Below, in pieces: positions 2,410 through 19,374 of a stretch of DNA of 34,228 nucleotides. This DNA comes from Candidatus Aenigmatarchaeota archaeon (GTDB taxonomy: Archaea > Aenigmatarchaeota > Aenigmatarchaeia > CG10238-14), in the NCBI GenBank assembly GCA_018920365.1, contig JAHLMM010000005.1, positions 1-34,228 of the forward strand. The letters run 5' to 3'. A model generated the notes under the pieces. The model saw nothing but the letters and a program-made list of their open reading frames with translations, was not told the DNA's origin and did no database searches. Made by a program: the position numbers and the translations under genes. Position 1 is the first letter of the stretch, and the number at the start of each line of letters is the position of its first letter.

Positions 2410-4635
2410 ATGGTATTTGAGACAGAGTATATTGATGGCATTTTAAGGATAAACTGTCTTGACAGCATTTTCGGTTTTAATATAGAAGATTCAGAAACAG
2501 TAATGGCAAATGTCATAGACAAGATACTTGAGTATAAAAAAGTTGAAAGAATAATTCTAGTTGAAAGAAGGGAATATGAATATGATTTTTTTCAAACAAG
2601 GCTAATTGTTGAAATAGCAAATTTGTATGACAAGTTGCTGAATCAAGACAGAATTTTGGATTTTGGCTATCCTGAAAATATATCTTCAGCTGTATCTCAA
2701 TTGGGCTTTATCTTGCAAGTTGTTATGAAAAAGGATCCAATAGGAGCGTTTGTAAAACTGAGAAGAATGTTAAGGTTGTATGAAAGCAAGTTATCCAAAT
2801 CTTCATCCATGAATGAAAGGGTTGCGTATAGGATGTTAATAAAAAAACTTCAATATATTATAGATCTTTTTGAAAAAACAGAGCTCATAAAAACAGTTAA
2901 AGAAAGTTTACTTGGACATAAAGTTGGAGAGAGAGATATCTACAGGGTAATTTTCAACCCTATGATAAGACCAATATTCATGTTGACACGCTATTCTTCT
3001 CTACCTCCAAAAAACAGCAGGCTTGTTGATAGATATAAACTTCCGGATGGTATACAAGTTGAAATATTTCGTGTGCCCGATCAGGTTAGGTATTATTATT
3101 TTGTCAACGCACCTGAATTTAGGCTTGATGATGAAAAGTATTTCATTCTTGAAAACGCTAGAAGGCAGATAGCTGAGCACAAACCTAGTGAAACAGAATT
3201 TTCTCAGCCAGAAAAAGTAAGAGAAATATTCACAAACATAGGAAGAGATTTGATATTGCAATTTTCTGGAGGAAAGAAATTCACATCAAAAGAAATTGAT
3301 GAAATGACAAACATTCTTGTAAGACATACAACAGGTTTTGGTGTTTTGGAAATATTGCTTAATGATGAAAAGTTACAAGATATTTACATAAATTCACCTG
3401 TTGGCATATCACCAATATATGTTCATCACGATGATTATGACGAGTGTGAAACAAATCTGATACCAACGAGAGAGGATGCAGAGAGTTGGGCTACAAGATT
3501 CAGATTATTTTCTGGTCGTCCTTTGGATGAGGCAAATCCTGTGTTAGATACAGAATTGTTTGTGCCAGGTGGCAGAGCAAGAGTTGCAGCAATAACAAGA
3601 ACTTTAAGTCCAGAAGGAATAGCATATGCTTTAAGAAGACATAGAGATAGACCTTGGACTTATGCATTGTTTTTGCAGCAAAAATATTTTACACCTTTGT
3701 ATGCAGGACTTATGAGTTTCATAGTAGATGGATCAAGATCAATTTTGTTTGCAGGCGGGCGCTCTTCTGGTAAATCAAGTATGCTTGGTGCAACAATGCT
3801 TGAGATAATGAAAAAATTCAGAATAATAACGGTAGAAGATACATTGGAGTTACCTGTGCCACAATTGAGGAATTTGGGATACAACATAGAAAGAATGAAG
3901 TCTCGTTCTGTTATAACAAGAGTCGAATCTGAGTTGCCTGCTGATGAAGCATTAAGGACAGCTTTACGTTTAGGCGATTCCTGTTTAATAGTAGGTGAAG
4001 TAAGATCAAAAGAAGCAGTATCTCTGTTTGAAGCAATGAGAATAGGTGCTTTGGCGCATGTAGTAGCAGGTACTATACATGGTGAAAGCGCATATGGTGT
4101 CTTTGATAGAGTTGTAAACGATTTAGGTGTTACCAAAACAAGTTTTAAAGCAATAGATATTGTCACTGTGTCTGGTATGATAAAATCTGGTGATGGCTTA
4201 AGAAGATTCAGAAGAGTACTTGAGGTAACAGAGATAAGAAAGCATTGGAAAGATGATCCAATGTCTGAAAATGGTTTTGTAAATTTGATGGAATATTCTG
4301 CGAAAGAAGACGCTTTGAAGCCAACAGATACTCTAGTCAATGGTGAATCTTATGTTATCAATGAAATAGCGAAAAGGGTGAGAGAATGGCATGGAAATTG
4401 GGATGCTGTTTGGGATAACATTGAATTGAGAGCTAAAATAAAGCAAGCTATAGTTGATTATGCAGCAAAGTTAAATAGAAAGGATATACTTGAAGCCGAA
4501 TGGGTATCAGCAAGCAACGAAATGTTCCATTTGATTTCAGACCAAGTCAAACGCGAGTTAGGCTCATTAGATTCAAAAGAAATATTTAATAGATGGAGTG
4601 AATGGTTTAAACAATCCATAAAGGGGAAAAAATGA
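2410..4635 (+). CDS. Type II/IV secretion-type ATPase (FlaI/TadA/GspE superfamily)
   Basis: 741 aa; Walker A GGRSSGKSS, ITVEDTLELP, Walker B LIVGEVRSKEA, AGTIHGESA; approx. 250 aa N-terminal extension. Confidence 0.93.
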   Translation: MVFETEYIDGILRINCLDSIFGFNIEDSETVMANVIDKILEYKKVERIILVERREYEYDFFQTRLIVEIANLYDKLLNQDRILDFGYPENISSAVSQLGFILQVVMKKDPIGAFVKLRRMLRLYESKLSKSSSMNERVAYRMLIKKLQYIIDLFEKTELIKTVKESLLGHKVGERDIYRVIFNPMIRPIFMLTRYSSLPPKNSRLVDRYKLPDGIQVEIFRVPDQVRYYYFVNAPEFRLDDEKYFILENARRQIAEHKPSETEFSQPEKVREIFTNIGRDLILQFSGGKKFTSKEIDEMTNILVRHTTGFGVLEILLNDEKLQDIYINSPVGISPIYVHHDDYDECETNLIPTREDAESWATRFRLFSGRPLDEANPVLDTELFVPGGRARVAAITRTLSPEGIAYALRRHRDRPWTYALFLQQKYFTPLYAGLMSFIVDGSRSILFAGGRSSGKSSMLGATMLEIMKKFRIITVEDTLELPVPQLRNLGYNIERMKSRSVITRVESELPADEALRTALRLGDSCLIVGEVRSKEAVSLFEAMRIGALAHVVAGTIHGESAYGVFDRVVNDLGVTKTSFKAIDIVTVSGMIKSGDGLRRFRRVLEVTEIRKHWKDDPMSENGFVNLMEYSAKEDALKPTDTLVNGESYVINEIAKRVREWHGNWDAVWDNIELRAKIKQAIVDYAAKLNRKDILEAEWVSASNEMFHLISDQVKRELGSLDSKEIFNRWSEWFKQSIKGKK

Positions 4636-6644
4636 AAAAAGATTTGATCAATCAATTAAGAGAAGAATTTGAACATGGAAAAACAGTTAGAAAACTTTCT
4701 GCAGATTATATTCAATTTTTGAAGGATGAAGTTGAAAGAAAAAGTTTTTATGAAAAATTCTGTGTTTTCTGCAGCAGCATAATAAAAATAAATTTAGATG
4801 ATGAAAAAAGTAAAGAGTTGCAACAAAAATTAGACTTTAGCAATCTTAAAATAAATGCAAGCGATGTTTATTCTGCTTTTGTTGTAACTCTGTTTTTTAC
4901 AGCTTTAATATTTGTGTCATCATTTATAGCATTACTAACAATCTATCCAATTAATCAAATAATAAAATACGTTGCTTTTATAACGATAATTGGTGTTTCT
5001 GTCTCTTATTATGTGCTCATATACCCTAACATTTATGCTAAAAAGACAAGAGTTGATGCTTCCTCGGAAATTGTACAAGCTATACTTTATATTTCAATTG
5101 GCTTGAAAAATGTCCCCAACTTAGAAAGTGCAGTGGCATTTGCAGCATTCAATCTTGACGGTCCATTAGGAAAAGATTTGCGCAAACTTTTGTGGGATGT
5201 TTATACAGGCAAATACAGTAGAATAGAAGACGGTTTAGATGATTTTTCAAGAAAATGGAAGTTCGAAAACAGAGAATTTTCCCAAGCAATTGATTTGTTA
5301 AAGACGTCTGTAACAGAAATTTATGATAGGGACAAAGTCATTGAAAGAGCAATAAACCTGATATTGCAGTCTAACATGGAAAGAATGAATCAATATGCTA
5401 GGGATTTGAAAAATCCAATAACAATAATAAATGCTTTAGGTGTATTGTTACCTGTTATAACGTTAATGATATTTCCTATATTAGGTTTAATTATGCCAAC
5501 GCTTGTTAGCCCTTACACGCTATTATTCATGTATAATATTGCATTGCCATTAGTAGTTTATTTTTTAATGAAAAATGTTTTAGAAAAAAGACCATATGGC
5601 TTTCATTCAATTGATATAACAGGGCACCCCGAAGCCAACAATTTTGGTTATATATCTTTGAATTTCTCAAAAAGAAAAATTCAAATTCCTTTGCTGCCAT
5701 TCTGTATAGGAATATTTCTTTTGATTTCATTCCCAGCAATAATAGGCATTTTAAATGCTACAATAGAAACACCATTATTTACAAGAACTTTGTATGGGCT
5801 TCAAATTTTTTGGGGAATTATTATTTCATTGATAATATTTACCTTGATGTCTACAAGTAAGAATAGAAGAATAAAAAAAGATTTGGAAGAAATAGAATCA
5901 GAATTTTCAGAAGCTATATTCATGTTAGGCAGCACTTTAAGGGCAGGTCAGCCATTTGAATCATCATTAAAATCTACATCCCAAAGATTGAAAGACCAAA
6001 AAATTTACAGTTTTTTTGAAAAAATAATCTACAAAATGAATAATTTTGGTATGTCTTTAAAAGACGCTGTTTTTCATAAAGATCAAGGCGTCATAAAGGA
6101 ATATCCATCCAAAACAATAAAAAATACAATGAAAATTGTTGTTGAATCTACATCAAAAGGGCTTGGTCCTACCGCATCTGTACTTACAGCAATATCACAA
6201 TACATGAAAAATGTCCATGATGTTGACGAACATTTAAAGCAGCTTTTAGAAGATGTAACATCATCTATGGGTATAATGTCATCTTTGCTTGTTCCCTTAG
6301 CGGCTGGTGTTGTTGTAGGCTTGAGTGGAATAATAATGAAGATATTGATATTTGTTTCTGGCTTATTTGCACAACTGCCAACTGATTCAACAGAAATACC
6401 CATTTTGAATATAAAACCAGAATCTATAATGCCAATTGAAATGATGATAGTTGTTGTCGGATTTTATATGATAGAATTGATAATATCACTAAATATATTT
6501 AAAGTGAAAATAGACAAAGGAAACGATATATTTGAGATAGGATATTCAATAGGTACAAATTTAATAAGTGCGGCATTAATATTTACATTTGCTATATTAA
6601 TTATAACGTTTGGATTAGGAGCTCTTATACCGTTGAGTGTTTGA
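4632..6644 (+). CDS. FlaJ/TadC-type platform membrane protein (two T2SSF-like halves)
   Basis: 670 aa; ATGA overlap with the ATPase; TM clusters with GPLGKDLRKLLWDVYTGKYSRIEDGL motif and a second half ending in a TM bundle. Confidence 0.88.
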   Translation: MKKDLINQLREEFEHGKTVRKLSADYIQFLKDEVERKSFYEKFCVFCSSIIKINLDDEKSKELQQKLDFSNLKINASDVYSAFVVTLFFTALIFVSSFIALLTIYPINQIIKYVAFITIIGVSVSYYVLIYPNIYAKKTRVDASSEIVQAILYISIGLKNVPNLESAVAFAAFNLDGPLGKDLRKLLWDVYTGKYSRIEDGLDDFSRKWKFENREFSQAIDLLKTSVTEIYDRDKVIERAINLILQSNMERMNQYARDLKNPITIINALGVLLPVITLMIFPILGLIMPTLVSPYTLLFMYNIALPLVVYFLMKNVLEKRPYGFHSIDITGHPEANNFGYISLNFSKRKIQIPLLPFCIGIFLLISFPAIIGILNATIETPLFTRTLYGLQIFWGIIISLIIFTLMSTSKNRRIKKDLEEIESEFSEAIFMLGSTLRAGQPFESSLKSTSQRLKDQKIYSFFEKIIYKMNNFGMSLKDAVFHKDQGVIKEYPSKTIKNTMKIVVESTSKGLGPTASVLTAISQYMKNVHDVDEHLKQLLEDVTSSMGIMSSLLVPLAAGVVVGLSGIIMKILIFVSGLFAQLPTDSTEIPILNIKPESIMPIEMMIVVVGFYMIELIISLNIFKVKIDKGNDIFEIGYSIGTNLISAALIFTFAILIITFGLGALIPLSV

Positions 6645-6983: not shown

Positions 6984-7112
6984 ATGGAAGTAAAGTTCAT
7001 TGCAGGTATAATACTTTTTTTAATTATGTTAGCTGTATTGTTGTTGATTTTAAGTTTAGGTAATAATGTTATTAACAACATTTTTGATTTTTTGAAAGGT
7101 GTTGTATCATGA
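6984..7112 (+). CDS. Micro-protein, single TM helix
   Basis: 42 aa, below the ORF-track cutoff: MEVKFIAGIILFLIMLAVLLLILSLGNNVINNIFDFLKGVVS; ATGA overlap with the next gene. Confidence 0.65.
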   Translation: MEVKFIAGIILFLIMLAVLLLILSLGNNVINNIFDFLKGVVS

Positions 7113-8092
7113 AAGGATTGTCATTAATGCTGTCATTAATATTAGCTTTGGTAATTCTCGGTATAGGATTATTGGTCTTCAACAAAATTAAAAACTGGAG
7201 ATGCTTTGGAAATATTTTTGAATGTGGAGAAAGCGCAAAATTAATCCTCTCAGCAAACTGTGTTTATACAAGATGTTTGAAAGGATGTAACGATAAAGAC
7301 ACGATTTCTTTGCAAACAAACGATTTTAATTGCCAAAACACTTGTGATAAAGCAAGTTTTCTTGATTTAGTAAAAAGTGACAGTAGCATTGTTTTTGATT
7401 ATTCATACTGTGGTTTGCAATATCCAATCCCTGTGGATTTAACAAATGAGGCGGAAAGTAGAAGAAAAATATCTTTGAAAGATTTTAAAACATTCGATTG
7501 CATTGTTCTGTACAATGATAGGGCAGATAACACGTTTGATGATGTTTTTAATGATAATCCATTTCCATCAATGAATGTTATATTTATTGACGGTTCAATC
7601 GTTGAAAATTATGAGGAGTTGAAATCAGGTAATTGTGTTACAGGTTTACCAATTGAAAGCAAGTATAAGCAAATAGATAATGTTGTTATAAAAAGCGGTA
7701 TAATATATTCTTATGGTGGTGCCGATAATTTCATCGTATCAGTATCCTATCCTTCAGCATCAGTAAAGCAACTTGATGGAACAAAAATATTTTTGTCAGA
7801 TATCTATTACTATAATCAATTCAACAGCAACTCTATCGCATTTATTCCAGGAAGATATTATCCGCTTGATGCTACCAATGGTATAGTTTTTGCAATTCAA
7901 TCAGTGTCTTTATCACAATGTTCGTCATTAAAATATTATTATCACTGTGGTAATCAAGTTCAAAGTGGAAGTATAGATCATCCTGAACTACCTGTAGATT
8001 TTCAGATTTGCAACAAATATAGGTTTTATGCAGACTCAGCTTGCATTTCAAACCAAAATGCACCAATTGTGTTGAATGCAGAGAGGATATAA
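7109..8092 (+). CDS. Pilin-like N-terminus plus Cys-containing extracellular domain
   Basis: 327 aa; MKGLSLMLSLILALVILGIGLLVF then Cys-rich segment (CVYTRCLKGCNDKD...CQNTCDKA). Confidence 0.85.
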   Translation: MKGLSLMLSLILALVILGIGLLVFNKIKNWRCFGNIFECGESAKLILSANCVYTRCLKGCNDKDTISLQTNDFNCQNTCDKASFLDLVKSDSSIVFDYSYCGLQYPIPVDLTNEAESRRKISLKDFKTFDCIVLYNDRADNTFDDVFNDNPFPSMNVIFIDGSIVENYEELKSGNCVTGLPIESKYKQIDNVVIKSGIIYSYGGADNFIVSVSYPSASVKQLDGTKIFLSDIYYYNQFNSNSIAFIPGRYYPLDATNGIVFAIQSVSLSQCSSLKYYYHCGNQVQSGSIDHPELPVDFQICNKYRFYADSACISNQNAPIVLNAERI

Positions 8093-8094
8093 AA

Positions 8095-8286
8095 ATGGAT
8101 GACACAATTAAATTGATATTAAATATTGTAATAGGTGTTGTAATATTTGCTATAATTGTTTTTGGTTTGGTTTTGATCTCAGGTCAAAGCAAAGAAAAAT
8201 TGCAGGAATTTTTCAATAGTTTCAAACAAAGATTGATATTCAAAAATCATTATTTTTTAGTAATTAAAAATTTTCAAAGAAAATAA
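8095..8286 (+). CDS. Small one-TM protein
   Basis: ORF-track start 8041 overlaps the upstream CDS; ATG at 8095 gives MDDTIKLILNIVIGVVIFAIIVFGLVLISGQSKEKLQEFF... (63 aa). Confidence 0.65.
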   Translation: MDDTIKLILNIVIGVVIFAIIVFGLVLISGQSKEKLQEFFNSFKQRLIFKNHYFLVIKNFQRK

Positions 8287-8323
8287 TAAATATTGGAAAT
8301 ATTAAATAATAAAAAGTGATATT

Positions 8324-8611
8324 TTGAAGGGAGAAGCAGAAAACACAATTGTTAGAATTGTTATTGCATTAATAATTATTGGTGTTATAGTAGCTTTGAT
8401 ATATTTGTCCTTGGGCCCATTTAGAAGAGAAATAAATTATCAGATTTGTTATTCTGCTTTGAAATCATATTGCGCTGACAAAGATCCATCGGCATCAACA
8501 GCCTCTGTAACAACCAGTTCTTCTTGTCAAAGAGAAATGCCTGCAGAAAAATCTTATGTAAAATCAATAAGTTCATGTGAACAACTTGAAGTAACTACAC
8601 AAACACCTTAA
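8324..8611 (+). CDS. Small one-TM protein, pilin-like N-terminus
   Basis: TTG start; MKGEAENTIVRIVIALIIIGVIVALIYLSLG + short Cys-containing tail. Confidence 0.75.
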   Translation: MKGEAENTIVRIVIALIIIGVIVALIYLSLGPFRREINYQICYSALKSYCADKDPSASTASVTTSSSCQREMPAEKSYVKSISSCEQLEVTTQTP

Positions 8612-8645
8612 CTTTTTTCTTTAAGCTTTACAATTAATTATATCA

Positions 8646-9239
8646 ATGAAAGGCGCTGTTACTTCAGTAATGTTGATGATAATTGTTACTGCCTTAACAA
8701 TTATTATAATAACAATGACTTTGCCTTCTATGAAAGAAATGACTTTTGTTAGAAATTGCATGATTAATATAAACGATCAGGTAAGAAACATAGTTAATGC
8801 TGCATGTATAATGGATGATACTGACTTGGAATCAGTGCAAGAAGTTGATTTGTCATGTTTTGAATACATAAGTTATGATAACACTGAACATACCTTAAGC
8901 TATAGAATCAAAGGTAAAAATGATGATAAAAAGATAGATCTAGTCTGCCCAAACACCATAAGTGCTGTTGAATTTGATTTTTCTTCTGCTGGCAACCAAA
9001 ATATACTTCAGATTACAAAGACAAAATACAACTTTCTTGTTTTACCAAAAAAAGCCAAGCTTTTATTTTGTTATGGTGACGTTACTCAATGCATCAATTT
9101 GAATGAAAACCAATGCAAAGTGCAGCTTGGTTGTTTATATGATTCTAATTCAAATACATGTACAGGTACTGCTATTGATTGTGAAAATTTGAATGAAAAC
9201 CAATGCACAAAACAATTAGGTTGTGGTTTAGTTGTCTGA
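8646..9239 (+). CDS. Pilin-like N-terminus with C-terminal Cys repeat (LNENQCxxQLGC x2)
   Basis: 197 aa; MKGAVTSVMLMIIVTALTIIIITMTL; two NLNENQC..QLGC units. Confidence 0.85.
   Translation: MKGAVTSVMLMIIVTALTIIIITMTLPSMKEMTFVRNCMININDQVRNIVNAACIMDDTDLESVQEVDLSCFEYISYDNTEHTLSYRIKGKNDDKKIDLVCPNTISAVEFDFSSAGNQNILQITKTKYNFLVLPKKAKLLFCYGDVTQCINLNENQCKVQLGCLYDSNSNTCTGTAIDCENLNENQCTKQLGCGLVV
9096..9207 (+). repeat. 22-nt exact direct repeat (aatttgaatgaaaaccaatgca) at 9096-9117 and 9186-9207 encoding the Cys repeat
   Basis: Exact repeat, 90-bp spacing (30 codons, in frame). Confidence 0.9.
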
Positions 9240-9675
9240 AGAAAGACCATCTGAGGCATTAGAATTTTTTATATTAACGTTTGCATTGTTAGCAGCAGCA
9301 ATACTTTTTGCAAAATCTATTGTAGACGGCATTAATACAATGCTTTACTTTTTTTCAAAAGCAAACGCAGAATCAGTTTCAGATGAAATATCAGATTTGA
9401 TTACAAACTCAGGTGGTACAACTTGTAATGTTTCTGTGCAATATATTAAGCCAAGAGGTAATTTCAAGTATAATATAATGTTTTTTGATAAATCTGTAAT
9501 AATTGATTCTGAAAAAATAGATGATACTAATACATATGTATATAAAACATTTTCTCACAGTTTTTATCCAATAAAAGTTAAAATAAAAACTGACAAACAA
9601 ATAGATTTTGAAAGTGTTGAAATATCAAAAATAAAGAATGAAATACAAGTTGAACCCAAAGGAGGAATCACATGA
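9232..9675 (+). CDS. One-TM secreted/pilin-like protein
   Basis: 147 aa, TTG start; MSEERPSEALEFFILTFALLAAAILFAKSIV; ends in ATGA overlap with the next gene. Confidence 0.75.
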   Translation: MSEERPSEALEFFILTFALLAAAILFAKSIVDGINTMLYFFSKANAESVSDEISDLITNSGGTTCNVSVQYIKPRGNFKYNIMFFDKSVIIDSEKIDDTNTYVYKTFSHSFYPIKVKIKTDKQIDFESVEISKIKNEIQVEPKGGIT

Positions 9676-10568
9676 AAAAAGGCGGCGTCTCAATTGCATT
9701 AACATTTGCAGAGTTTATTGGATTATTAATATTCGTAGGAATTCTTGTATTGATTTTTAGAATTCTTTCAGGTGACGTCATAAAATTTGGTTTTGAGAAA
9801 GAAAAATACGCAGAAGCTCATAAAGCTGTTAGTTTAGAAAATTATATATTAGCATCACCAGATTTAATTGCAGATGTTAATGGAAATGCGCAGAAAGGTG
9901 TTTTGAGCAACCAAAAAATTCAAAATTATGATGGAAAAAAATTAGATTGCTGCGACTATATAGATTATGATTATTCGATTGAAATAAAATCTATTGACAA
10001 TAGCGAAGTTTATGCTATTAATTATCAAAAACAAGATTTGAAACTACTTTTTGATTTGGGTAAAAAATGCAATCAAATTTCCGGCGATATTTTAATGAAA
10101 TCATACAGCGCCCCAATAGTAATTTATGATGAAAATACTGGATCAAAAACTCTAGCAAAGATGTCATTATATCTAACAAAAACACCGATTTCAATAATAT
10201 CAGAAGAAATATTCAATGCATGTATAAACAATAATTATGAAAATTCAGTTCCTATATACGGTTTTCATTCATCCGAGTTAAGTATACTAAAATCAGCAAA
10301 AAATGAATATTCAATTTGTCTGGAAACTATTTCAGGTAGTTTTATGTGCAAGAGAATTAATTGTGAAAAGACTATAAACACACCTAAATTTAACTCTAAA
10401 TGTCAAAATAATGATGGTAAATGTTCGATGACAAGTATAAATTCAAAATGTGGTTATGTTTTGGATAATGATTGTAGTAAAAATACATGTTCTAGTTTGA
10501 ATATAATATCTAATGATAAAGAGGTTAATATATGCTTTTCAGGAGAAAAGGACTCGGCACAATGTTGA
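9672..10568 (+). CDS. Pilin-like N-terminus with Cys-containing ectodomain
   Basis: 298 aa; MKKGGVSIALTFAEFIGLLIFVGILVLIF; C-terminal Cys-rich tail. Confidence 0.85.
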   Translation: MKKGGVSIALTFAEFIGLLIFVGILVLIFRILSGDVIKFGFEKEKYAEAHKAVSLENYILASPDLIADVNGNAQKGVLSNQKIQNYDGKKLDCCDYIDYDYSIEIKSIDNSEVYAINYQKQDLKLLFDLGKKCNQISGDILMKSYSAPIVIYDENTGSKTLAKMSLYLTKTPISIISEEIFNACINNNYENSVPIYGFHSSELSILKSAKNEYSICLETISGSFMCKRINCEKTINTPKFNSKCQNNDGKCSMTSINSKCGYVLDNDCSKNTCSSLNIISNDKEVNICFSGEKDSAQC

Positions 10569-11017
10569 CAATAATCATAATATTTGCGATTATAAGCATC
10601 TCGTTATTTTTATTTGTATCTTTATTCACATACAACATAAGACTTGAAACTATAGAATTGGTAACAAAATCTCAAGAAAGTCTGATTCCATTAGCAATTG
10701 TCAATTCTGATTATTTGGATGGTGATAGTCTTGCGATTTCATTTGAAAGAAACCAAGATGAAACAACAAAAATTATAGACGATTTCATAGTGAAATACAA
10801 AAATTATGAAACGTCTCAGCTAACACAGACAAAAAGTGTACACTATTATTATTCGATAAATAATGTTGATAACACTATAGAATATATTTCAAATGGTAAA
10901 TGTTTGAGTACATCAAAGACTTGCACAAAATATACATTTAGGACAAAATTTCCTATGCCAAAAATTTTTGACGGACAAAATTTTTTAGGCGAATTTGTGT
11001 TTACAAGCTATGTGTGA
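10532..11017 (+). CDS. Pilin-like one-TM protein
   Basis: 161 aa; MLFRRKGLGTMLTIIIIFAIISISLFLFVSLF; 37-nt overlap with upstream CDS (alternative ATG at 10562). Confidence 0.75.
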   Translation: MLFRRKGLGTMLTIIIIFAIISISLFLFVSLFTYNIRLETIELVTKSQESLIPLAIVNSDYLDGDSLAISFERNQDETTKIIDDFIVKYKNYETSQLTQTKSVHYYYSINNVDNTIEYISNGKCLSTSKTCTKYTFRTKFPMPKIFDGQNFLGEFVFTSYV

Positions 11018-11021
11018 TAAT

Positions 11022-12293
11022 ATGAAAGGAATATCAATATTAATACCGGCAATGCTTTTACTTGTTCTTGCTTCTGTATTCATATCTTTGTTTTATTTTC
11101 AAAAAACAATTTCAATTGAAAGAGGTGTTTTCAGAGAAAAATTAAATTTGAATGCAAACAGAATAGAGACAACGTCATCATTAGTAACACAAGCAGCAGA
11201 ATTATCATTACTTCAATCAATATACGATATAGGAAATTCAAATGTTGCAATTTCAAATAATTTTGATTACAACAGTCAAGAAAAATTGCCTTATTGGTCT
11301 CAAATGCAAGAGAATTATCTTGAACAATCAATAACAGAATTGGCAGGAATATATTTTTCAAAATATCACTCAGAATTTTCAGATTATTTCATGAATCCTT
11401 CCAGATCAGAAGGCAGAAGTGAATTTTGGAAAGTTGAGTGGAGCAAAAACATGATATTTGAAAAAATGGATCAAAACGAAATTATAGTCAGCTTTGGGGC
11501 ATACAATATAAGCTACAAGGATAATAATGTAGAATTGTCAAAGAAGTATGAATTAAAAGCAAGAATAAAAACATCTTTTGGTCTTTTCATACAAAAAGGT
11601 AATCAAGCAATTCAAATGATAAATAACGGAAGAGCCTCAGATGTTTCAAGCTTATCAGATAATTATGTAGATGTTCGTTTAGAAGATAGAAACAATTATT
11701 ATATTATTATTATTGAAGAAAAGAAAACCAATTCTTTTTATGATATGTCTGCAAACCAAAAAATCAAAGATAAAATTAGATTAAAGTTTGTTGTCAGCAA
11801 AGACAATAGATGTTTATGTTTGGATTCTTGCGGAAATTCATGTTGGGTTTCTTTTGGACAAAACTTTTTTGAATGCCCAAACTCTTGTCAAAGTATTGTA
11901 CAGTCAAATCCTTTATCAAATTGTCCGATAATTTCAACGTGTAATGGAGTGCAAGTTGATTTATGTTCTGACAGACAGAATTGTGGTGTATGTGGCAATG
12001 AATGTGAAGGTCCTATAGATGGCGGTTATTGCTGTTCTCAAGGTAGATGTACAGATAACACCGGTACTTCATGTAGCTATACGCCAGCTCCATCTTCAAT
12101 GTGTTATTGCAGCAGTAGTTTATGCATGCAACCATGTTGGATTGGCTATAGAAATATAATCGAATGCCCATCGAATTATTGTGGTGCATCAACATCAATT
12201 GGATCAAAACTAAACCAGTTATCAGATGTAAACAACTATGGAAACATTTATGTTTTAAGACCTGGGCAAAAAACAGATTTTATTTTCACTTAA
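11022..12293 (+). CDS. Pilin-like N-terminus, large ectodomain with duplicated Cys-rich module
   Basis: Start set at ATG 11022 (MKGISILIPAMLLLVLASVFISLFYF); ORF track start 10995 overlaps the upstream gene; C-terminal CxC...CW...ECPxxC modules. Confidence 0.82.
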   Translation: MKGISILIPAMLLLVLASVFISLFYFQKTISIERGVFREKLNLNANRIETTSSLVTQAAELSLLQSIYDIGNSNVAISNNFDYNSQEKLPYWSQMQENYLEQSITELAGIYFSKYHSEFSDYFMNPSRSEGRSEFWKVEWSKNMIFEKMDQNEIIVSFGAYNISYKDNNVELSKKYELKARIKTSFGLFIQKGNQAIQMINNGRASDVSSLSDNYVDVRLEDRNNYYIIIIEEKKTNSFYDMSANQKIKDKIRLKFVVSKDNRCLCLDSCGNSCWVSFGQNFFECPNSCQSIVQSNPLSNCPIISTCNGVQVDLCSDRQNCGVCGNECEGPIDGGYCCSQGRCTDNTGTSCSYTPAPSSMCYCSSSLCMQPCWIGYRNIIECPSNYCGASTSIGSKLNQLSDVNNYGNIYVLRPGQKTDFIFT

Positions 12294-14464
12294 TCGTACA
12301 TTGTATATTTTGTAGCACGATTTTTTACAATATCAACATATTTTCTTGTTCCATCAGCTATACTGCTAGTACAATCTCTTGTTCCATCAGCTAGTCTAAC
12401 ACAACAACCCCATCCATTGTAAGCTCTTATTGCCAAATCCCAACCTGTATATACAGCATAAAAATTAGGCGAACAATCATAAGTGCAACTAACATCTGTT
12501 GTGCAACTTCCTTGACCAGTGCATGTAAATCCATTTCTTATAGCAATAGATGCAGAGCTGTCACACTTTGACTTAAATTGCCTTACTCCGCATTCTATAT
12601 TTTTATTTATGTCATATGGATCAGAACATTCGCCAGGCATTAATTGCATTACACCTATTGCGCCTGATGGAGATATTTTAATATTACCGTTTGACCAGCA
12701 ATGCATAAATCCAGATTCTGTTTCTGTTATCGCCAATACTATGCTTGGTTTTACTCCTTGTCTTTTTGCTTCTGTAACTATTTTATTTATGACTTTTTGT
12801 TTATCAGTCTCACAATTATTTTGCAACACTAAATTTTCTGGAGCACAACAAACAGTATCAACTTGACTACATATACCAGGAACTTCTATGTAACCACTAG
12901 AACAGCTGTGCATACATACATACGGACTTTTGCATTCAGTCAACTTAGCACAGCAAATAGTATCAGGTTGACTGCAAAAACCTTTAGTTACAGTATATCC
13001 ATTTGGGCAAGGATTGGTTGGATTGCAACTAGTACCTATGCACGGATGCATACACACATTAGGATCTCTACATTCTGTTACACCAGAAGATGATGCACCA
13101 GAACCAGATGGCAGTGTTGATTGTGTCTGCATAATACATTTATGAATGCTTTTTTGATCAGTTACAGTTGTTTTATATGAATAATTTACATAAACAGAGG
13201 CAAGTACAGTTTTTTCATAATCCTTATAATTGCTTGTCAAAACCTCTGCACCGCATCTTATCATAATACCTTTTGATTTTTTTACTTCATCTGCATTAGC
13301 TATTGAAAAACTATAACATGTTTTAGGATCATTACAACTTTGCAGTGTGATGACATTTCCATTAACATCACAAGAGTTTAATCTGATATAATCAACACCA
13401 AAAACAATTTTTCCATTTTCAAAACTTGCCGTACCATCGCCTAGATTTTTGATATTTATTATTATATCAAATTGTGTGTTTTCTTTCAACACAATACTCG
13501 GATAGGAATAACCTATCACATCTACAGGTCCAGGAGAGACAAGATTTTCTTCAATGTTTATTTTACTATATTCACTTCTTATCTCTTCTCTTCCTACAGT
13601 AGGATCAACATAAAATTTGAAAATTCCTTTTGATGTCTGCTCTGTTATTGCATCAACTTTGAAATAAACAGTGTTTGCACATATGGATGGCATTTTATCA
13701 AATTTCAATACTACAGGCAGATATTCGCCACCTCTTAATATTGTTTGATTATTGTCATATACTGTGATAACTTCTTGATCTGTAAAAGAGCTAAACATCT
13801 TACCAGAAGCCATTGCTTGCACCATTTTTATCTTTATATCATATGTATTTTCATAACTTCGTGATCGCGGATCAATGTTTTTGTTTATCAAAACAAGCTG
13901 AAGATTATAAGGCTCTCCAGCAATTGCATCTATTTCATCTTTAACAACACTTATAGAACCTCTTGAATATTTTGGATACCCGAATTTTATATCCAAACCT
14001 CTATAATCTCCTACTTTTTTATAGTCTTTACCGCATTCTTCCAAATCTTTTTCCTGTATTTCAGCGTTTATTGCACACAATGATCTTGAAATATCATTAA
14101 ATACAGAGCTAAGAAAAGTGGTTATACCGCTAGTAGCATCTCTGAAAGTTTGACTTGAAAATATTGCAATTACAACAGCACCAAATAATATAAATGAAGA
14201 TACAAGTGCTAAACTTTTTACTGTGTTATCATTTTTCACAAGAATATAAAAACTCCAAAGATTGAACGTAGAAATTGCAGATATCTTAATTATTAATCCT
14301 ATTATTGTATTTAATTTTGGAAACAATCTTGATGTAAAAGCAAAAACAATTATTATTGAAAAAATAAACATTACAACCCAGACAATAAATTTTATATTTT
14401 GCGTTTCATTCAAAATTTCATTTTTTTCTTGATTCTGCTCATTTTCTTGTGATATTATCTTCAA
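12290..14464 (-). CDS. Membrane-anchored Cys-rich protein with C-terminal lytic transglycosylase (SLT/goose-lysozyme-like) domain
   Basis: 724 aa; N-terminal TM segments, beta-rich region, two CMHxC Cys modules, then KPSIVLAITETESGF...SPSGAIGVMQLMP...DINKNIECGVRQF...AIRAYNGWG, matching the SLT motif layout. Confidence 0.88.
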   Translation of the reverse strand: MKIISQENEQNQEKNEILNETQNIKFIVWVVMFIFSIIIVFAFTSRLFPKLNTIIGLIIKISAISTFNLWSFYILVKNDNTVKSLALVSSFILFGAVVIAIFSSQTFRDATSGITTFLSSVFNDISRSLCAINAEIQEKDLEECGKDYKKVGDYRGLDIKFGYPKYSRGSISVVKDEIDAIAGEPYNLQLVLINKNIDPRSRSYENTYDIKIKMVQAMASGKMFSSFTDQEVITVYDNNQTILRGGEYLPVVLKFDKMPSICANTVYFKVDAITEQTSKGIFKFYVDPTVGREEIRSEYSKINIEENLVSPGPVDVIGYSYPSIVLKENTQFDIIINIKNLGDGTASFENGKIVFGVDYIRLNSCDVNGNVITLQSCNDPKTCYSFSIANADEVKKSKGIMIRCGAEVLTSNYKDYEKTVLASVYVNYSYKTTVTDQKSIHKCIMQTQSTLPSGSGASSSGVTECRDPNVCMHPCIGTSCNPTNPCPNGYTVTKGFCSQPDTICCAKLTECKSPYVCMHSCSSGYIEVPGICSQVDTVCCAPENLVLQNNCETDKQKVINKIVTEAKRQGVKPSIVLAITETESGFMHCWSNGNIKISPSGAIGVMQLMPGECSDPYDINKNIECGVRQFKSKCDSSASIAIRNGFTCTGQGSCTTDVSCTYDCSPNFYAVYTGWDLAIRAYNGWGCCVRLADGTRDCTSSIADGTRKYVDIVKNRATKYTMYD

Positions 14465-14474
14465 TTACCACACC

Positions 14475-15278
14475 TTATATTTCAGATTTTGATGATATCT
14501 CAATATCCTTATAAATTTTATAATTATAACTGTATTCTACAGAAATTTTAGCATATTCCCCTGGTTTGTTTCCAGCTTTAAGAGAACAAAACAAAGGAGG
14601 ATTATAATTTACTTTAAAATCTCCTAAATTTGTAAAATCGCATGCTTGGTTATCATATATTTCAAAATTGACAAGCTTTATTTTAATGTTATTGCCTTTG
14701 ATTATAACATCTGATGTTTCATCTGAGATAAAATTGATTGTGGACACTACAACCTCATTTGGACTTATACCTTCGTTATTGCTGCTTAATTTTATTTCAG
14801 CTTTTACCGGACCATTAGTATAATCACTAGATATTGAACCAATCTTTAGATTCTGAGTGTATATAGGCACAGAAATTGATGATTCGTCTAAAGAGTCATA
14901 ACTTACTGAAATTCTTGGTACTATTGTAACACCATTTCCGGACATGCAAAAGTCTTTTGGTGGCATAAATGTAAAAATAACTATTCTTTCATCACCTTGC
15001 TCAATTTGTGAAAGAGAACATTCGTTGCTTGTTTTTTTACCTTGCTCGCATTCTATTGATTTTATATCCATACTCGACAAATCTTCCACTGCTACAACAA
15101 CATTCTTTATAGAATGATCAATATTATTTGTCATTTTTACTTTGACAGAAAATGGCATATTACATTTTATTTCTTTTGGATAATCAAATGATATATCAAA
15201 CTTGCTTTGTACTGACTGTTCTTGAACACAACCTGAAATTAGCAGTACCAAAAATACTATTAGAAATGCAATCTTCAT
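14475..15278 (-). CDS. Secreted lipoprotein with beta-sandwich-type ectodomain
   Basis: 267 aa; signal peptide with lipobox MKIAFLIVFLVLLISGC. Confidence 0.8.
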   Translation of the reverse strand: MKIAFLIVFLVLLISGCVQEQSVQSKFDISFDYPKEIKCNMPFSVKVKMTNNIDHSIKNVVVAVEDLSSMDIKSIECEQGKKTSNECSLSQIEQGDERIVIFTFMPPKDFCMSGNGVTIVPRISVSYDSLDESSISVPIYTQNLKIGSISSDYTNGPVKAEIKLSSNNEGISPNEVVVSTINFISDETSDVIIKGNNIKIKLVNFEIYDNQACDFTNLGDFKVNYNPPLFCSLKAGNKPGEYAKISVEYSYNYKIYKDIEISSKSEI

Positions 15279-15314
15279 ATAATTATTATTTAATCAAGAT
15301 ATAAAATATATTTG
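15279..15314. promoter_or_regulatory. Very short divergent promoter region
   Basis: 36 bp between divergent starts 15278(-) and 15315(+); contains TATA-like gatataaaatata. Confidence 0.4.
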
Positions 15315-17405
15315 ATGCCTAATAGGATTAACTTTGAACAAAAACCGTCAAAAGATTATATAAACTTTCTTCTTGAGGATACTAAATCAAAAGAGAAAAA
15401 TACATGGTTTGAAAAATTATGCGGCTTTACAGAAAATTTTGGTATAGATCCTCCAAAGGAAATGAAGGAAAAACTAAATCAAACAATAGCATTTTCATCT
15501 TTAAATGTAACAGCAAAAGGCGTTTTTACAGCATCAATATTAACTTTTTTCATACTTTTGATTAACATTTCATTTCTATCTTCCATACTTAAAAGCACAG
15601 GTTTAATAGCCCTAATGATTTTAATACCGATTGTTGGCTTTATCTATATTTATACATACCCATCTTTTTCTTCAAAGGTTGTTAAAATACAAACAGGTGA
15701 CGAAGCAATAAAAATCATCTTATACATGATCATCTATCTTAAATTAAACCCTACTTTTGAGGGAGCTGTTTTATATGCTTCTGCTCACACAAAAGGTCCT
15801 ATTTCAAATGATATAAAAAAAGCCGTTTGGGATATGCAAACAGGCAAATATAGATCAATTGAAGAAGCTTTGTCGTTTTATATACCAAAATGGGTTGTTT
15901 GGAACGAAGATTTTGTAAGGTCTCTCAGTCTTTTATACGGTGTTCTTATCGAGCCAAGCGAAAAAGGAAGAGATGACATATTAAGAAAATCTTTAGACTA
16001 TATGCTGGAAAATACAAAAGAAAAAATGAAGGTTTATGTTGAGGAGATAAGCGGTTCTATAAATATACTTCACATAATGGGCATACTTCTTCCTGTAATG
16101 GCAATGGTAATGCTTCCGCTCGTATCAATGTTTTTAAATGATACAGTTAACCCTCTTTATATTGGAATAGGCTATATCATAATACTGCCTTTGTTTTTAT
16201 ACTTTTTTATAAGAAGAATACTTTTGAAAAGACCTTCAGCGTTCCTTATACCCGATGTATCAAAGCATCCTGATTTGCCACCACCAGGAAAGTTTTCAAT
16301 AAAAATAGGAAAAAACAAACTTTACTTGTCAGCAATATTTATTTCTATTATAGTTGGTTTGCTTCTATCATCTTATGGAATCCTACATTTTACCAAGCTT
16401 TATTTTGATTATGCAAATGCAAGCCCACAGCTAAAAGAAGAAATAATGAAAGGAGAGGCAAGTATAAATTTCGAAAATATTGCATCAACTTTATCAATAA
16501 CATTAGGCATAGGTTTTGCTACATATACATACTTTTACTTGATAAGTTTTCAAAGAATAAAAATAAGAAATGAAGTCAAAGATGTAGAAAGAGAATTTCA
16601 AGTAGGTTTATTTACATTAGGCAACTATTTATCAGAAGGATATCCAATAGAGAAAAGTATAGAGAAAAGTTTGGATGAGTATGAAAAATTGGGAATGAAA
16701 AACAAAGCCACATACAAATTCTTTCAAAAACTTCTTAATAACATAAAAAATACAGGAATGACTTTTAAGAGGGCTATTTTTGACAAGACTTTGGGTTTGA
16801 TGATATATTTCCCATCTGTTTTGATAGAAGAAGTAATGAATGTCATATCAAGTGCTTCTGAAAGAAGCTCAACAGTACTAGGAAACGTGGCAAAGACAAT
16901 AGCAACTTATATTGAAAATTTGAATTCAATTGAAATAAAAATAAGAGAATTGCTAGAGGAAGTTAGGTCAGGCATAAAGATACAATCATCTTTTGTAATA
17001 CCTGTTGTTTGTGGCCTTGTTGCAGCTTTAGGGATATTCATACTAAACATGTTTGCAATTATATCATGTGAAATGCAAAAAATTGAAAAGAGTTTTGGTT
17101 TTTCAGGTTTGCAAAACTCCGGTGATTTTTTAAAACAAATGATTGGAAGCTTTTCAAAAATGATGCCTATGACTGTGCTGCAAGCAATAATAGGAGTATA
17201 TACGATTGAAATAATTATTATAAGCTCTATTCTTTTGAATGGTATAGAAAACGGTTTTGATCCTGTATCAAGAAATTACTTGATAGCTAACACAATTATA
17301 AAGGCATTAATTGTTTATTCAATTGTTTTTATCTTAGCTTTAGTAGTGTTTGATTATACTCTTATATCAATGCAATCATCTAATGGAATGTTTTCTTGCA
17401 GATAA
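15315..17405 (+). CDS. Second FlaJ/TadC-type platform membrane protein (paralogue of 4632..6644)
   Basis: ATG at 15315 (ORF track starts at TTG 15312); GPISNDIKKAVWDMQTGKYRSIEEAL and KRPSAFLIPDVSKHPD mirror motifs of the first copy. Confidence 0.87.
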   Translation: MPNRINFEQKPSKDYINFLLEDTKSKEKNTWFEKLCGFTENFGIDPPKEMKEKLNQTIAFSSLNVTAKGVFTASILTFFILLINISFLSSILKSTGLIALMILIPIVGFIYIYTYPSFSSKVVKIQTGDEAIKIILYMIIYLKLNPTFEGAVLYASAHTKGPISNDIKKAVWDMQTGKYRSIEEALSFYIPKWVVWNEDFVRSLSLLYGVLIEPSEKGRDDILRKSLDYMLENTKEKMKVYVEEISGSINILHIMGILLPVMAMVMLPLVSMFLNDTVNPLYIGIGYIIILPLFLYFFIRRILLKRPSAFLIPDVSKHPDLPPPGKFSIKIGKNKLYLSAIFISIIVGLLLSSYGILHFTKLYFDYANASPQLKEEIMKGEASINFENIASTLSITLGIGFATYTYFYLISFQRIKIRNEVKDVEREFQVGLFTLGNYLSEGYPIEKSIEKSLDEYEKLGMKNKATYKFFQKLLNNIKNTGMTFKRAIFDKTLGLMIYFPSVLIEEVMNVISSASERSSTVLGNVAKTIATYIENLNSIEIKIRELLEEVRSGIKIQSSFVIPVVCGLVAALGIFILNMFAIISCEMQKIEKSFGFSGLQNSGDFLKQMIGSFSKMMPMTVLQAIIGVYTIEIIIISSILLNGIENGFDPVSRNYLIANTIIKALIVYSIVFILALVVFDYTLISMQSSNGMFSCR

Positions 17406-17434: not shown

Positions 17435-17929
17435 ATGAAAGGCATAGCTCTATCTGTAATAGCTTATATGATACTTTCTCTTGTTGTTTTAATAGTTATT
17501 TTGAGTTTGATTGGTAACAAAATATATCCAGCCGCAAAAGAAGGCTATTGTAAATTTGTCATAGGTATTAGAAGTGTTTTGCCTTTGCCAACTCATATGA
17601 AAACAGACATACCAACTATTTGCCAAAAAACAGAAAGAATATATCCAGAAACAATTGAAATATTGTCAGGAGATCCGTTAAGAATATCTTTCAATATAGC
17701 AGCCTATTCACAGGCTTGTTGGGAAAGAACATCAAATCAAAACTATAACAAAGATGTTTTGTGTTATGAGCTTGTATTGAGAAGAGTGGATTCTGCTGTT
17801 ACATATCAAATGGTACAAAATTATTTAGGCACAAACAGCAATATTTTATTGACATTTAATGACATTACAGCGCCGAGATCAATAGGAATAATATATAATC
17901 ATCAACAAAACAAGATTCAGGTGATATAA
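17435..17929 (+). CDS. Pilin-like N-terminus with small ectodomain
   Basis: 164 aa; MKGIALSVIAYMILSLVVLIVILSLIG. Confidence 0.83.
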   Translation: MKGIALSVIAYMILSLVVLIVILSLIGNKIYPAAKEGYCKFVIGIRSVLPLPTHMKTDIPTICQKTERIYPETIEILSGDPLRISFNIAAYSQACWERTSNQNYNKDVLCYELVLRRVDSAVTYQMVQNYLGTNSNILLTFNDITAPRSIGIIYNHQQNKIQVI

Positions 17930-17941
17930 ATTTCACTGGAA

Positions 17942-18322
17942 ATGGAAACAATTTTCAAGTATGTTTTGTATAGTCTTGTGATTTTAGTTGTTATAGGCAT
18001 TGTTATAGCATTCAAAGATAGGATAATGAAGCTGTGTCTGATACCGCCTTGTGAAAAACAAACATGTGATGTAACTGTAATAACAACTTCAGAACCGTCT
18101 TTTTCAGGTACAGTTGAAAGATACTGCGATTTTTGCTATCAAAAAGCCAAAGATTGCAGGCAAGATACTTTATGTTATATAGTTTCATATCCATCAGTAT
18201 TTTCACAGCAACTTTACATACCTCAAAACAACAATATATGCAAATATCAATGCACAAAAGACACATCAACACTTTATTTCACTTATAATCACATTTCCCA
18301 GTCAGTTATAGTAGGTTGCTGA
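17942..18322 (+). CDS. One-TM protein with Cys-rich ectodomain
   Basis: 126 aa; METIFKYVLYSLVILVVIGIVIAF then CLIPPCEKQTC...CDFCYQKAKDC. Confidence 0.8.
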   Translation: METIFKYVLYSLVILVVIGIVIAFKDRIMKLCLIPPCEKQTCDVTVITTSEPSFSGTVERYCDFCYQKAKDCRQDTLCYIVSYPSVFSQQLYIPQNNNICKYQCTKDTSTLYFTYNHISQSVIVGC

Positions 18323-18323
18323 G

Positions 18324-18767
18324 ATGAAAGGATATCTGAATTATTTGTTTTATTCAATCCTTTTTTTTGTTTTTGTTGTTGTTTCAATTCTTATAATCAG
18401 AAACATTTCAAAATCACCTAATAACTTAGATTATGATATAAAATCAGAATATTTTTGTAATAGTATTAACAATACTGTTATCACTAAAAAAGAGTTTCAG
18501 GATATACTTACAGCCTTCATTAATGGAGATTGCACTGAAGTAATAATCACAGCTGGCGAACCTATTGAAAAGACAGATATTCAAGAAATGGTTAGAGAAA
18601 TAGACGAAAACATAGGAGTTTTTGAAATTAAAAATTGCGATCTCTTCTCATACAATAGTGGTAATATATTTGCTAATTTTACTAAAATTCAAATAGGTGA
18701 AAAAATTTATTTAAATAGAAAACAAATAATGAATAGCGATATACTGGTGTGTGCTTTTGAAAACTAA
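18324..18767 (+). CDS. Pilin-like one-TM protein
   Basis: 147 aa; MKGYLNYLFYSILFFVFVVVSILII. Confidence 0.8.
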   Translation: MKGYLNYLFYSILFFVFVVVSILIIRNISKSPNNLDYDIKSEYFCNSINNTVITKKEFQDILTAFINGDCTEVIITAGEPIEKTDIQEMVREIDENIGVFEIKNCDLFSYNSGNIFANFTKIQIGEKIYLNRKQIMNSDILVCAFEN

Positions 18768-19374
18768 AGGAGTAAACGCACTTGAAATTGTTTTTGGTGC
18801 TTTGCTATTAATGATAGTAGTAATTCTTGTCATCAGACTTTTAACAAATATTGTCACTCCAACAAAAATAACAGGAAATTTAAAAAATTTTGAAGAAGCT
18901 TATAATTTTGAGCAAGAAAAGGCAAAATGTAGAGATTTGTGTGATCAGTATATTTCTTCTGATTATGTAAGACAATACGCAGTTAATTATTGTATGCAAA
19001 AAGTTAGTATTGATATAAGCGGTGACAAAAGACCTGGCCAAAAAGGCCAATATGGGTTTGTAGCAAACCTGCCTTTTTGTGAAGATGGTTTGTATTGCTT
19101 CCATATTTATCAATGTAGAGCAGGAAATTATGTTTTAGATGCAACTAATTGCGGTAAGGTTTTATGTGAATATTATGTGAATGAAGTTGGACTATCTCCT
19201 GATGATGCTGAAAGCCTGATTACTCAATATAGTGGTATACACCCAGGTTCTTGTCCAATGGATGTAAACTCATGGAATATAAGAGACAAGCCAACATACC
19301 CTCAAGGCTCAAATTTGAACAGTGCAGATTGGTGGTATCAAAACGCCAATTATCCGAATGATTTATGTGGTTAA
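18751..19374 (+). CDS. Prepilin-like protein with Cys-containing ectodomain
   Basis: GTG 18751 or TTG 18757 start; (MLL)KTKG-VNALEIVFGALLLMIVVILVI: KG followed by E at +5. Confidence 0.82.
   Translation: MLLKTKGVNALEIVFGALLLMIVVILVIRLLTNIVTPTKITGNLKNFEEAYNFEQEKAKCRDLCDQYISSDYVRQYAVNYCMQKVSIDISGDKRPGQKGQYGFVANLPFCEDGLYCFHIYQCRAGNYVLDATNCGKVLCEYYVNEVGLSPDDAESLITQYSGIHPGSCPMDVNSWNIRDKPTYPQGSNLNSADWWYQNANYPNDLCG

Follow-up and report, generated by a model that had tools for sequence, protein, structure and literature searches.

The window analysed here, a stretch of 34,228 nucleotides, comes from the genome (752 kb, 94% complete) of an archaeon in the DPANN phylum Aenigmatarchaeota and contains a type IV-like pilus locus. 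Within this locus, at 12290-14464, lies the gene that we refer to below as the slot gene. The features of the locus are as follows.

2410-4635, plus strand: type II/IV secretion (pilus) ATPase, E (PF00437, 1.2e-15)
4632-6644, plus strand: first of two F-type membrane platform proteins of the pilus (PF00482, 1.5e-7)
7109-12293, plus strand: first pilin-like array, at least six ORFs (each with MKG.../KG... followed by one N-terminal transmembrane segment)
10995-12293, plus strand: last ORF of this first pilin-like array, 432 aa
12290-14464, minus strand: slot protein, 724 aa, TTG start, uninterrupted reading frame
Slot protein, about residues 26-104: three predicted N-terminal transmembrane helices
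Slot protein, residues 157-287 and 314-441: two beta-sandwich ectodomains, confident in the AlphaFold2 model
12821-13126, minus strand (residues 447-549): Cys-rich linker of the slot protein, with repeated CMHPC/CMHSC and ...SQVDTVCC
12293-12820, minus strand (residues 549-724): lytic transglycosylase (GH23/SLT) catalytic domain, from Pfam, alignment, AlphaFold2 and Foldseek
12716-12718, minus strand: codon of the catalytic Glu583, which begins the ES pair within ETESGF; in the alignment this pair coincides with the ES motif of Slt70/MltC
14475-15278, minus strand: lipoprotein-like gene directly upstream of the slot gene, conserved next to the slot gene in G003 and other genera of the family
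15312-17405, plus strand: second F-type membrane platform protein of the pilus (PF00482, 6.2e-4, below the cut-off; homologous to the first F)
17435-19374, plus strand: second pilin-like array, four ORFs, recognized by N-terminal sequence

An E-type ATPase and two F-type platform proteins, the combination by which such a pilus locus is recognized, bear out the pilus-like locus described in a sequence-only reading of this DNA. The genome also encodes a prepilin peptidase (PF01478, 3.6e-15), and about ten small ORFs in the locus have, by eye, pilin-like N-termini (K-G followed by one transmembrane segment). Their pilin-like status is a prediction from sequence and context; the one such ORF that was scanned has no Pfam family. 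The whole window is collinear with two genomes of the same genus (G001 and G003), in which nearly every substantial ORF has a homologue. This synteny with Aenigmatarchaeota metagenome-assembled genomes (MAGs) rules out a bacterial chimera, and the neighbouring genes, from which the earlier reading had wished the taxonomy of the contig to be verified, are archaeal.

A lytic transglycosylase domain on an archaeal scaffold

The slot protein ends in a domain that Pfam assigns to SLT (PF01464; residues 564-615, 25.9 bits versus a cut-off of 21.3) and that carries the motifs GAIGVMQ (601-607), NIECG (622-626) and AYNGWG (681-686). Across 14 divergent SLT domains drawn from related loci, seven alignment columns are invariant: E583, S584, G604, M606, N622, Y682 and N683. 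The profile of this alignment finds MltC and Slt70 in the PDB at E values of 1e-16 to 4e-14, and its ES motif falls on the catalytic Glu-Ser of both enzymes. The AlphaFold2 model of the domain (pLDDT 88.3, pTM 0.86), when searched against the PDB with Foldseek, matches Slt, LtgA and MltC first and then MltE and MltF, with a probability of 1.00 for the top matches and a best E value of 1.8e-3; nearly all of the 50 matches listed are GH23 enzymes. The TMq of about 0.5 is probably kept low by a Cys-rich insertion in the domain. Pfam score, catalytic and motif residues, and lysozyme-like fold thus all place the domain in GH23. The SLT-type layout perceived earlier is thereby confirmed, as is its catalytic Glu (ETESG), for which a check by predicted structure had been proposed: Glu583 is kept and the model matches lytic transglycosylases. 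The extent first given to the domain (12297-12790) was in the right place but slightly short of the actual nt 12293-12820, since the Cys-rich insertion splits the domain and makes it wider.

With the GH23 lytic transglycosylases Slt70, MltC, MltF and MltE the domain shares the common fold, the catalytic Glu-Ser and the GxxGxMQ, NI..G and AYN motifs. Unlike these enzymes, it belongs to an archaeon in which no murein synthesis genes were found (see below), contains a large Cys-rich insertion, and has as its carrier an archaeal scaffold of membrane and beta-sandwich parts, encoded in a pilus locus.

The ORF and the N-terminal transmembrane helices of the earlier reading both stand, the frame being uninterrupted over its 724 aa and the helices three in number. 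In the full-length AlphaFold2 model (pLDDT 66.4) the sandwich and SLT domains are confident, the linker and transmembrane region are poor, and the Cys-rich linker looks disordered. Matches of this model in the PDB are generic tandem beta-sandwiches (integrin legs, soluble domains of archaeal AglB) with low TM-scores, and bear no functional weight. No cell-wall-binding domain was found in the ORF by Pfam, SLT being the only match at E<=0.01. As the N-terminus is not pilin-like, the protein may be membrane-bound near the pilus rather than on it. At their 3' ends the slot ORF and ORF 10995-12293, which is pilin-like and converges on it, share 4 bp (12290-12293); similar Cys-rich modules (CMHPC / CMQPC) occur in both.

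Exchange of the catalytic module

In the same-genus genomes G001 and G003, the slot orthologues have a C-terminal Peptidase_M23 domain in place of SLT (E 5.6e-25 and 6.9e-27), with the zinc-ligand pattern HxxxD ... HxH. These proteins are 42% and 30% identical to that of the window and share with it the ectodomain, the Cys-rich linker and, as far as sequenced, the transmembrane region. The boundary of the exchange, read from an alignment of the window with the L027, L030 and L029 sequences, is sharp: homology to the scaffold runs up to "...VDTVCC", and homology to the genus's second SLT gene, described below, begins at "NCETD". Farther afield, the slot protein of G007, from a different genus in the family, again terminates in M23; that of G011 has a C-terminal peptidase domain called C39-like, a label based on likeness to Pfam C39_2, as found on the neighbouring protein, and not on a Pfam scan of the domain itself; and in G008 and G010 (genus g6) it has no enzyme domain. 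Profile comparison shows distant slot scaffolds to be homologous to that of the window (P 2.8e-5 and 1.3e-5). M23 occupies the slot in two genera, and among the three same-genus loci it does so twice; this distribution suggests M23 as the original occupant, for which SLT was later substituted in the window's lineage.

The genus possesses a second SLT gene (G000:C2, L032:5198-6208), with a pilin-like N-terminus (KASVSEIILTVGVLL...), which lies outside the pilus locus between LSm-like and FtsZ-like genes and is found in the three more complete members of the genus. Neither this gene nor the M23 domain at the slot of relatives had figured in the sequence-only reading. Across three genomes the window SLT is 53-60% identical to the domain of the second gene, and the two group together in the tree (95/90 support), which does not settle the order inside the group. 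The donor of the window SLT was most likely within the genus: the nearest source is the genus's own pilin-like SLT gene, which points to shuffling of the domain within the lineage and not to the bacterial donor that phylogeny had been expected to locate.

Other origins were considered. A misassembly joining the second SLT gene to the scaffold is unlikely, the two genome copies being only 58% identical. A viral origin was rejected: the domain has no close relative in viral contigs; matches to phages and plasmids are partial and at 45% identity or less, save two short ones spanning under a quarter. One scan of named genome contigs gave no bacterial relative and returned only two same-genus MAGs, JAOAJH010000003 (isolate SKW179) and JAHLMN010000027 (DRTY-7_1_bin_34), both Candidatus Aenigmatarchaeota archaeon.

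Wall-cutting domain families across the phylum

Of 156 genomes of the phylum, 46 have SLT, 56 have M23 and 10 have Amidase_2; many of these domains form the C-terminus of pilin-like proteins inside pilus loci. Several pilin-like proteins combine SLT with another domain: Amidase_2 (G008 and G010), C39 (G011), M23 (G005) or a reprolysin-like domain (G007). In genus g6, the pilin-like ORF at the position matching 10995-12293 carries SLT + Amidase_2 or SLT + C39. Paired SLT-pilin and M23-pilin genes are present in several families (G045, G118, G131, G136, G139, G141, G142, G146 and G147). SLT and M23 lie within 3 kb of each other in 14 of the 28 genomes that have both, a figure that includes a few genomes in which a single long ORF, of another type, has both domains; random placement gives a mean of 0.4 and a maximum of no more than 5 (20,000 trials). 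SLT and M23 genes apart from any pilus linkage also exist (e.g. L040, L065, L068 and L071); the association, though strong, therefore has exceptions. Neither domain was seen in the incomplete genomes G002, G004, G006 and G009.

Some further arrangements were observed. An NlpC/P60-domain ORF fragment (L037:2-472 in G005, E 2.3e-9) lies at a contig edge, upstream beside pilin-like genes. The end of L036 and the start of L064 (G007:C10 and G007:C4) appear to hold the two halves of one gene, which would probably put the SLT-pilin and two M23 genes in one large cluster. An Alba-like gene (DNVVFVGKKPTMSYVLAVITQF) stands repeatedly beside pilin/hydrolase arrays (L037, L041, L042, L132, L138 and L140). 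Other Aenigmatarchaeota families have SLT proteins of great length (from 700 to more than 3,000 aa; L034:7777-12153, L067:4968-9800, L089, L090) outside pilin arrays, some of them near DUF63-like membrane and lipoprotein genes.

The probable target

The penicillin-binding transpeptidase (PF00905) was found in none of the 156 phylum genomes, and the Mur ligase (PF08245) in none of the window's family; six of the 57 genomes outside that family have a Mur_ligase_M match, a Pfam family that also covers non-murein ligases. Hence the substrate should not be the cell's own murein. SLT enzymes cut the glycan strand, Amidase_2 the amide bond to the stem peptide, and M23 and NlpC/P60 the peptides of the wall. 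The only substrate common to these four is peptidoglycan, so the target of the exchangeable enzymes is likely to be bacterial murein. The earlier proposal that the protein could attack bacterial cell walls therefore gains support, both from the retained catalytic residues and the failure to find transpeptidase or Mur ligase, and from the other murein-cleaving families at the slot or on neighbouring pilin-like proteins.

Discussion

We propose, with a probability of roughly 0.6, that the slot protein is a membrane-anchored murein hydrolase that acts with the archaeal type IV-like pilus to open the bacterial wall. Its N-terminal helices would anchor it in the archaeon's membrane and leave the ectodomain on the outer side, a topology suggested by its three transmembrane helices and by the single one of the homologous g6 proteins. 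The two beta-sandwich domains and the Cys-rich linker would carry the lytic transglycosylase, which, to judge from its family and residues, would cut the MurNAc-GlcNAc strand of bacterial peptidoglycan. The end of the linker would be the point of exchange at which a lineage swaps SLT, M23, a C39-like module or no module at all, and other wall cutters (SLT, M23, Amidase_2, NlpC/P60) would ride on or beside the pilin-like subunits of like loci. The most likely use would be a local, contact-dependent opening of the wall of a pilus-held bacterium, on which the murein-less DPANN archaeon could then feed, to which it could attach, or which it could kill. That all this amounts to a contact-dependent, pilus-displayed apparatus with interchangeable modules (SLT, M23, Amidase_2, NlpC/P60, C39-like), which breaches the murein of living bacterial prey or hosts, is a more tentative proposition, to which we give somewhat less than even odds. 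Against the main proposal stand the two g6 genomes with no enzyme on the slot protein, the capacity of M23 and C39-like domains to act on other proteins, and the want of a Pfam cell-wall-binding domain in the slot ORF. According to PMC11291902, moreover, every cultivated DPANN has an archaeal host, which speaks against a bacterial target.

The main rival is scavenging, in which tethered murein hydrolases would digest dead or lysing bacteria for sugars and amino acids while the pilus served for general adhesion. The same genes would be expected, several bond types (glycan, amide and peptide) are covered, the limited biosynthesis of DPANN is established, and Vigneron et al. 2022 (PMC9723730) inferred microbial carbon recycling. 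A scavenging enzyme, however, would need neither to be encoded in a pilus locus nor to have pilin-like carriers, and the repeated linkage of hydrolases to such loci suggests contact-dependent use; we therefore regard scavenging as unlikely, though the most serious of the alternatives.

The remaining explanations are weaker still. At pilus passage or on contact with a host, the SLT domain might act as a repurposed enzyme on an S-layer or other archaeal glycan, the former being an alternative that the sequence-only reading had raised, or on a chitin-like polymer. Chitinolytic enzymes do occur among GH23 folds, and the archaeon's apparent lack of murein synthesis (no PF00905, no PF08245 in the family) would fit; but the M23 at the slot and the Amidase_2 and NlpC/P60 of sister loci have peptidoglycan in common with SLT and not a glycan, and since one glycan cannot serve all four alike, this explanation is improbable. 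A methanogen host whose pseudomurein is attacked would agree with the known life of DPANN on archaeal hosts and would likewise supply a wall polymer. Pseudomurein has talosaminuronic acid in beta-1,3 linkage together with L-amino acids, and is a poor substrate for GH23, M23 and Amidase_2, so that we give this idea very little credence. Equally slight is the chance that the use of SLT is non-catalytic or structural, the domain having degenerated into a module with which a pilus accessory protein binds sugars: the low Pfam score (25.9 bits) and the large Cys-rich insertion could be so read, but all the invariant residues, the catalytic Glu among them, are retained.

That archaea have murein hydrolases is already known, and GH23 enzymes of DPANN are among them. 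Strock et al. 2025 (PMC12352652) reported peptidoglycan hydrolases in about 5% of archaeal genomes, two haloarchaeal ones of which kill a bacterium; their enzymes likewise have murein hydrolase domains, domain shuffling and a presumed antagonism against bacteria. Their survey demanded a cell-wall-binding domain beside the catalytic one, a combination that the slot protein lacks, and the enzymes they studied were secreted haloarchaeal M23 proteins, whereas the enzymes described here are predicted to be tethered to the membrane or to pilins, and no binding domain was found in them; the main text of Strock et al. mentions neither pili nor Aenigmatarchaeota. GH23 in Woesearchaeota, another DPANN phylum, has been proposed as "vampiristic" (Vigneron et al. 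2022, PMC9723730), also a predation hypothesis, and there pilus linkage and module exchange were not reported. In Micrarchaeota MAGs, M23/GH23 were noted and some MAGs have type IV pili (PMC8561730). VirB1, TraG and PrgK of conjugative type IV secretion systems (PMC12102498) similarly place SLT and a peptidase/CHAP domain in a secretion locus; they open the producer's own wall, whereas the Aenigmatarchaeota archaeon has no wall of that kind and the machine of its locus is of the type II/IV pilus (E/F) type, with no VirB4-type system identified among the genes assigned in this analysis. Episymbiotic Saccharibacteria, as described in PMC12206443, resemble our organism as ultra-small, host-dependent cells with type IV pili for host contact but are bacteria, and a text search of that source found no link of the pili to a murein hydrolase. 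Catalytic-module exchange at one slot and the pilus-linked arrangement of murein hydrolases appear to be new; the open-licence literature yielded no description of archaeal pilin-fused or pilus-locus murein hydrolases or of such one-slot exchange, which is weak evidence.

The isolate name of one relative presumably hints at a hot-spring origin and, if this is right, these proteins would be a possible source of heat-adapted wall-cutting enzymes. The phylum-wide link between pili and hydrolases provides testable genes, residues and partners, and it predicts bacterial targets. DPANN in cultivation have archaeal hosts; if the proposed role is true, some DPANN, among the Aenigmatarchaeota, would be predators or episymbionts of bacteria.
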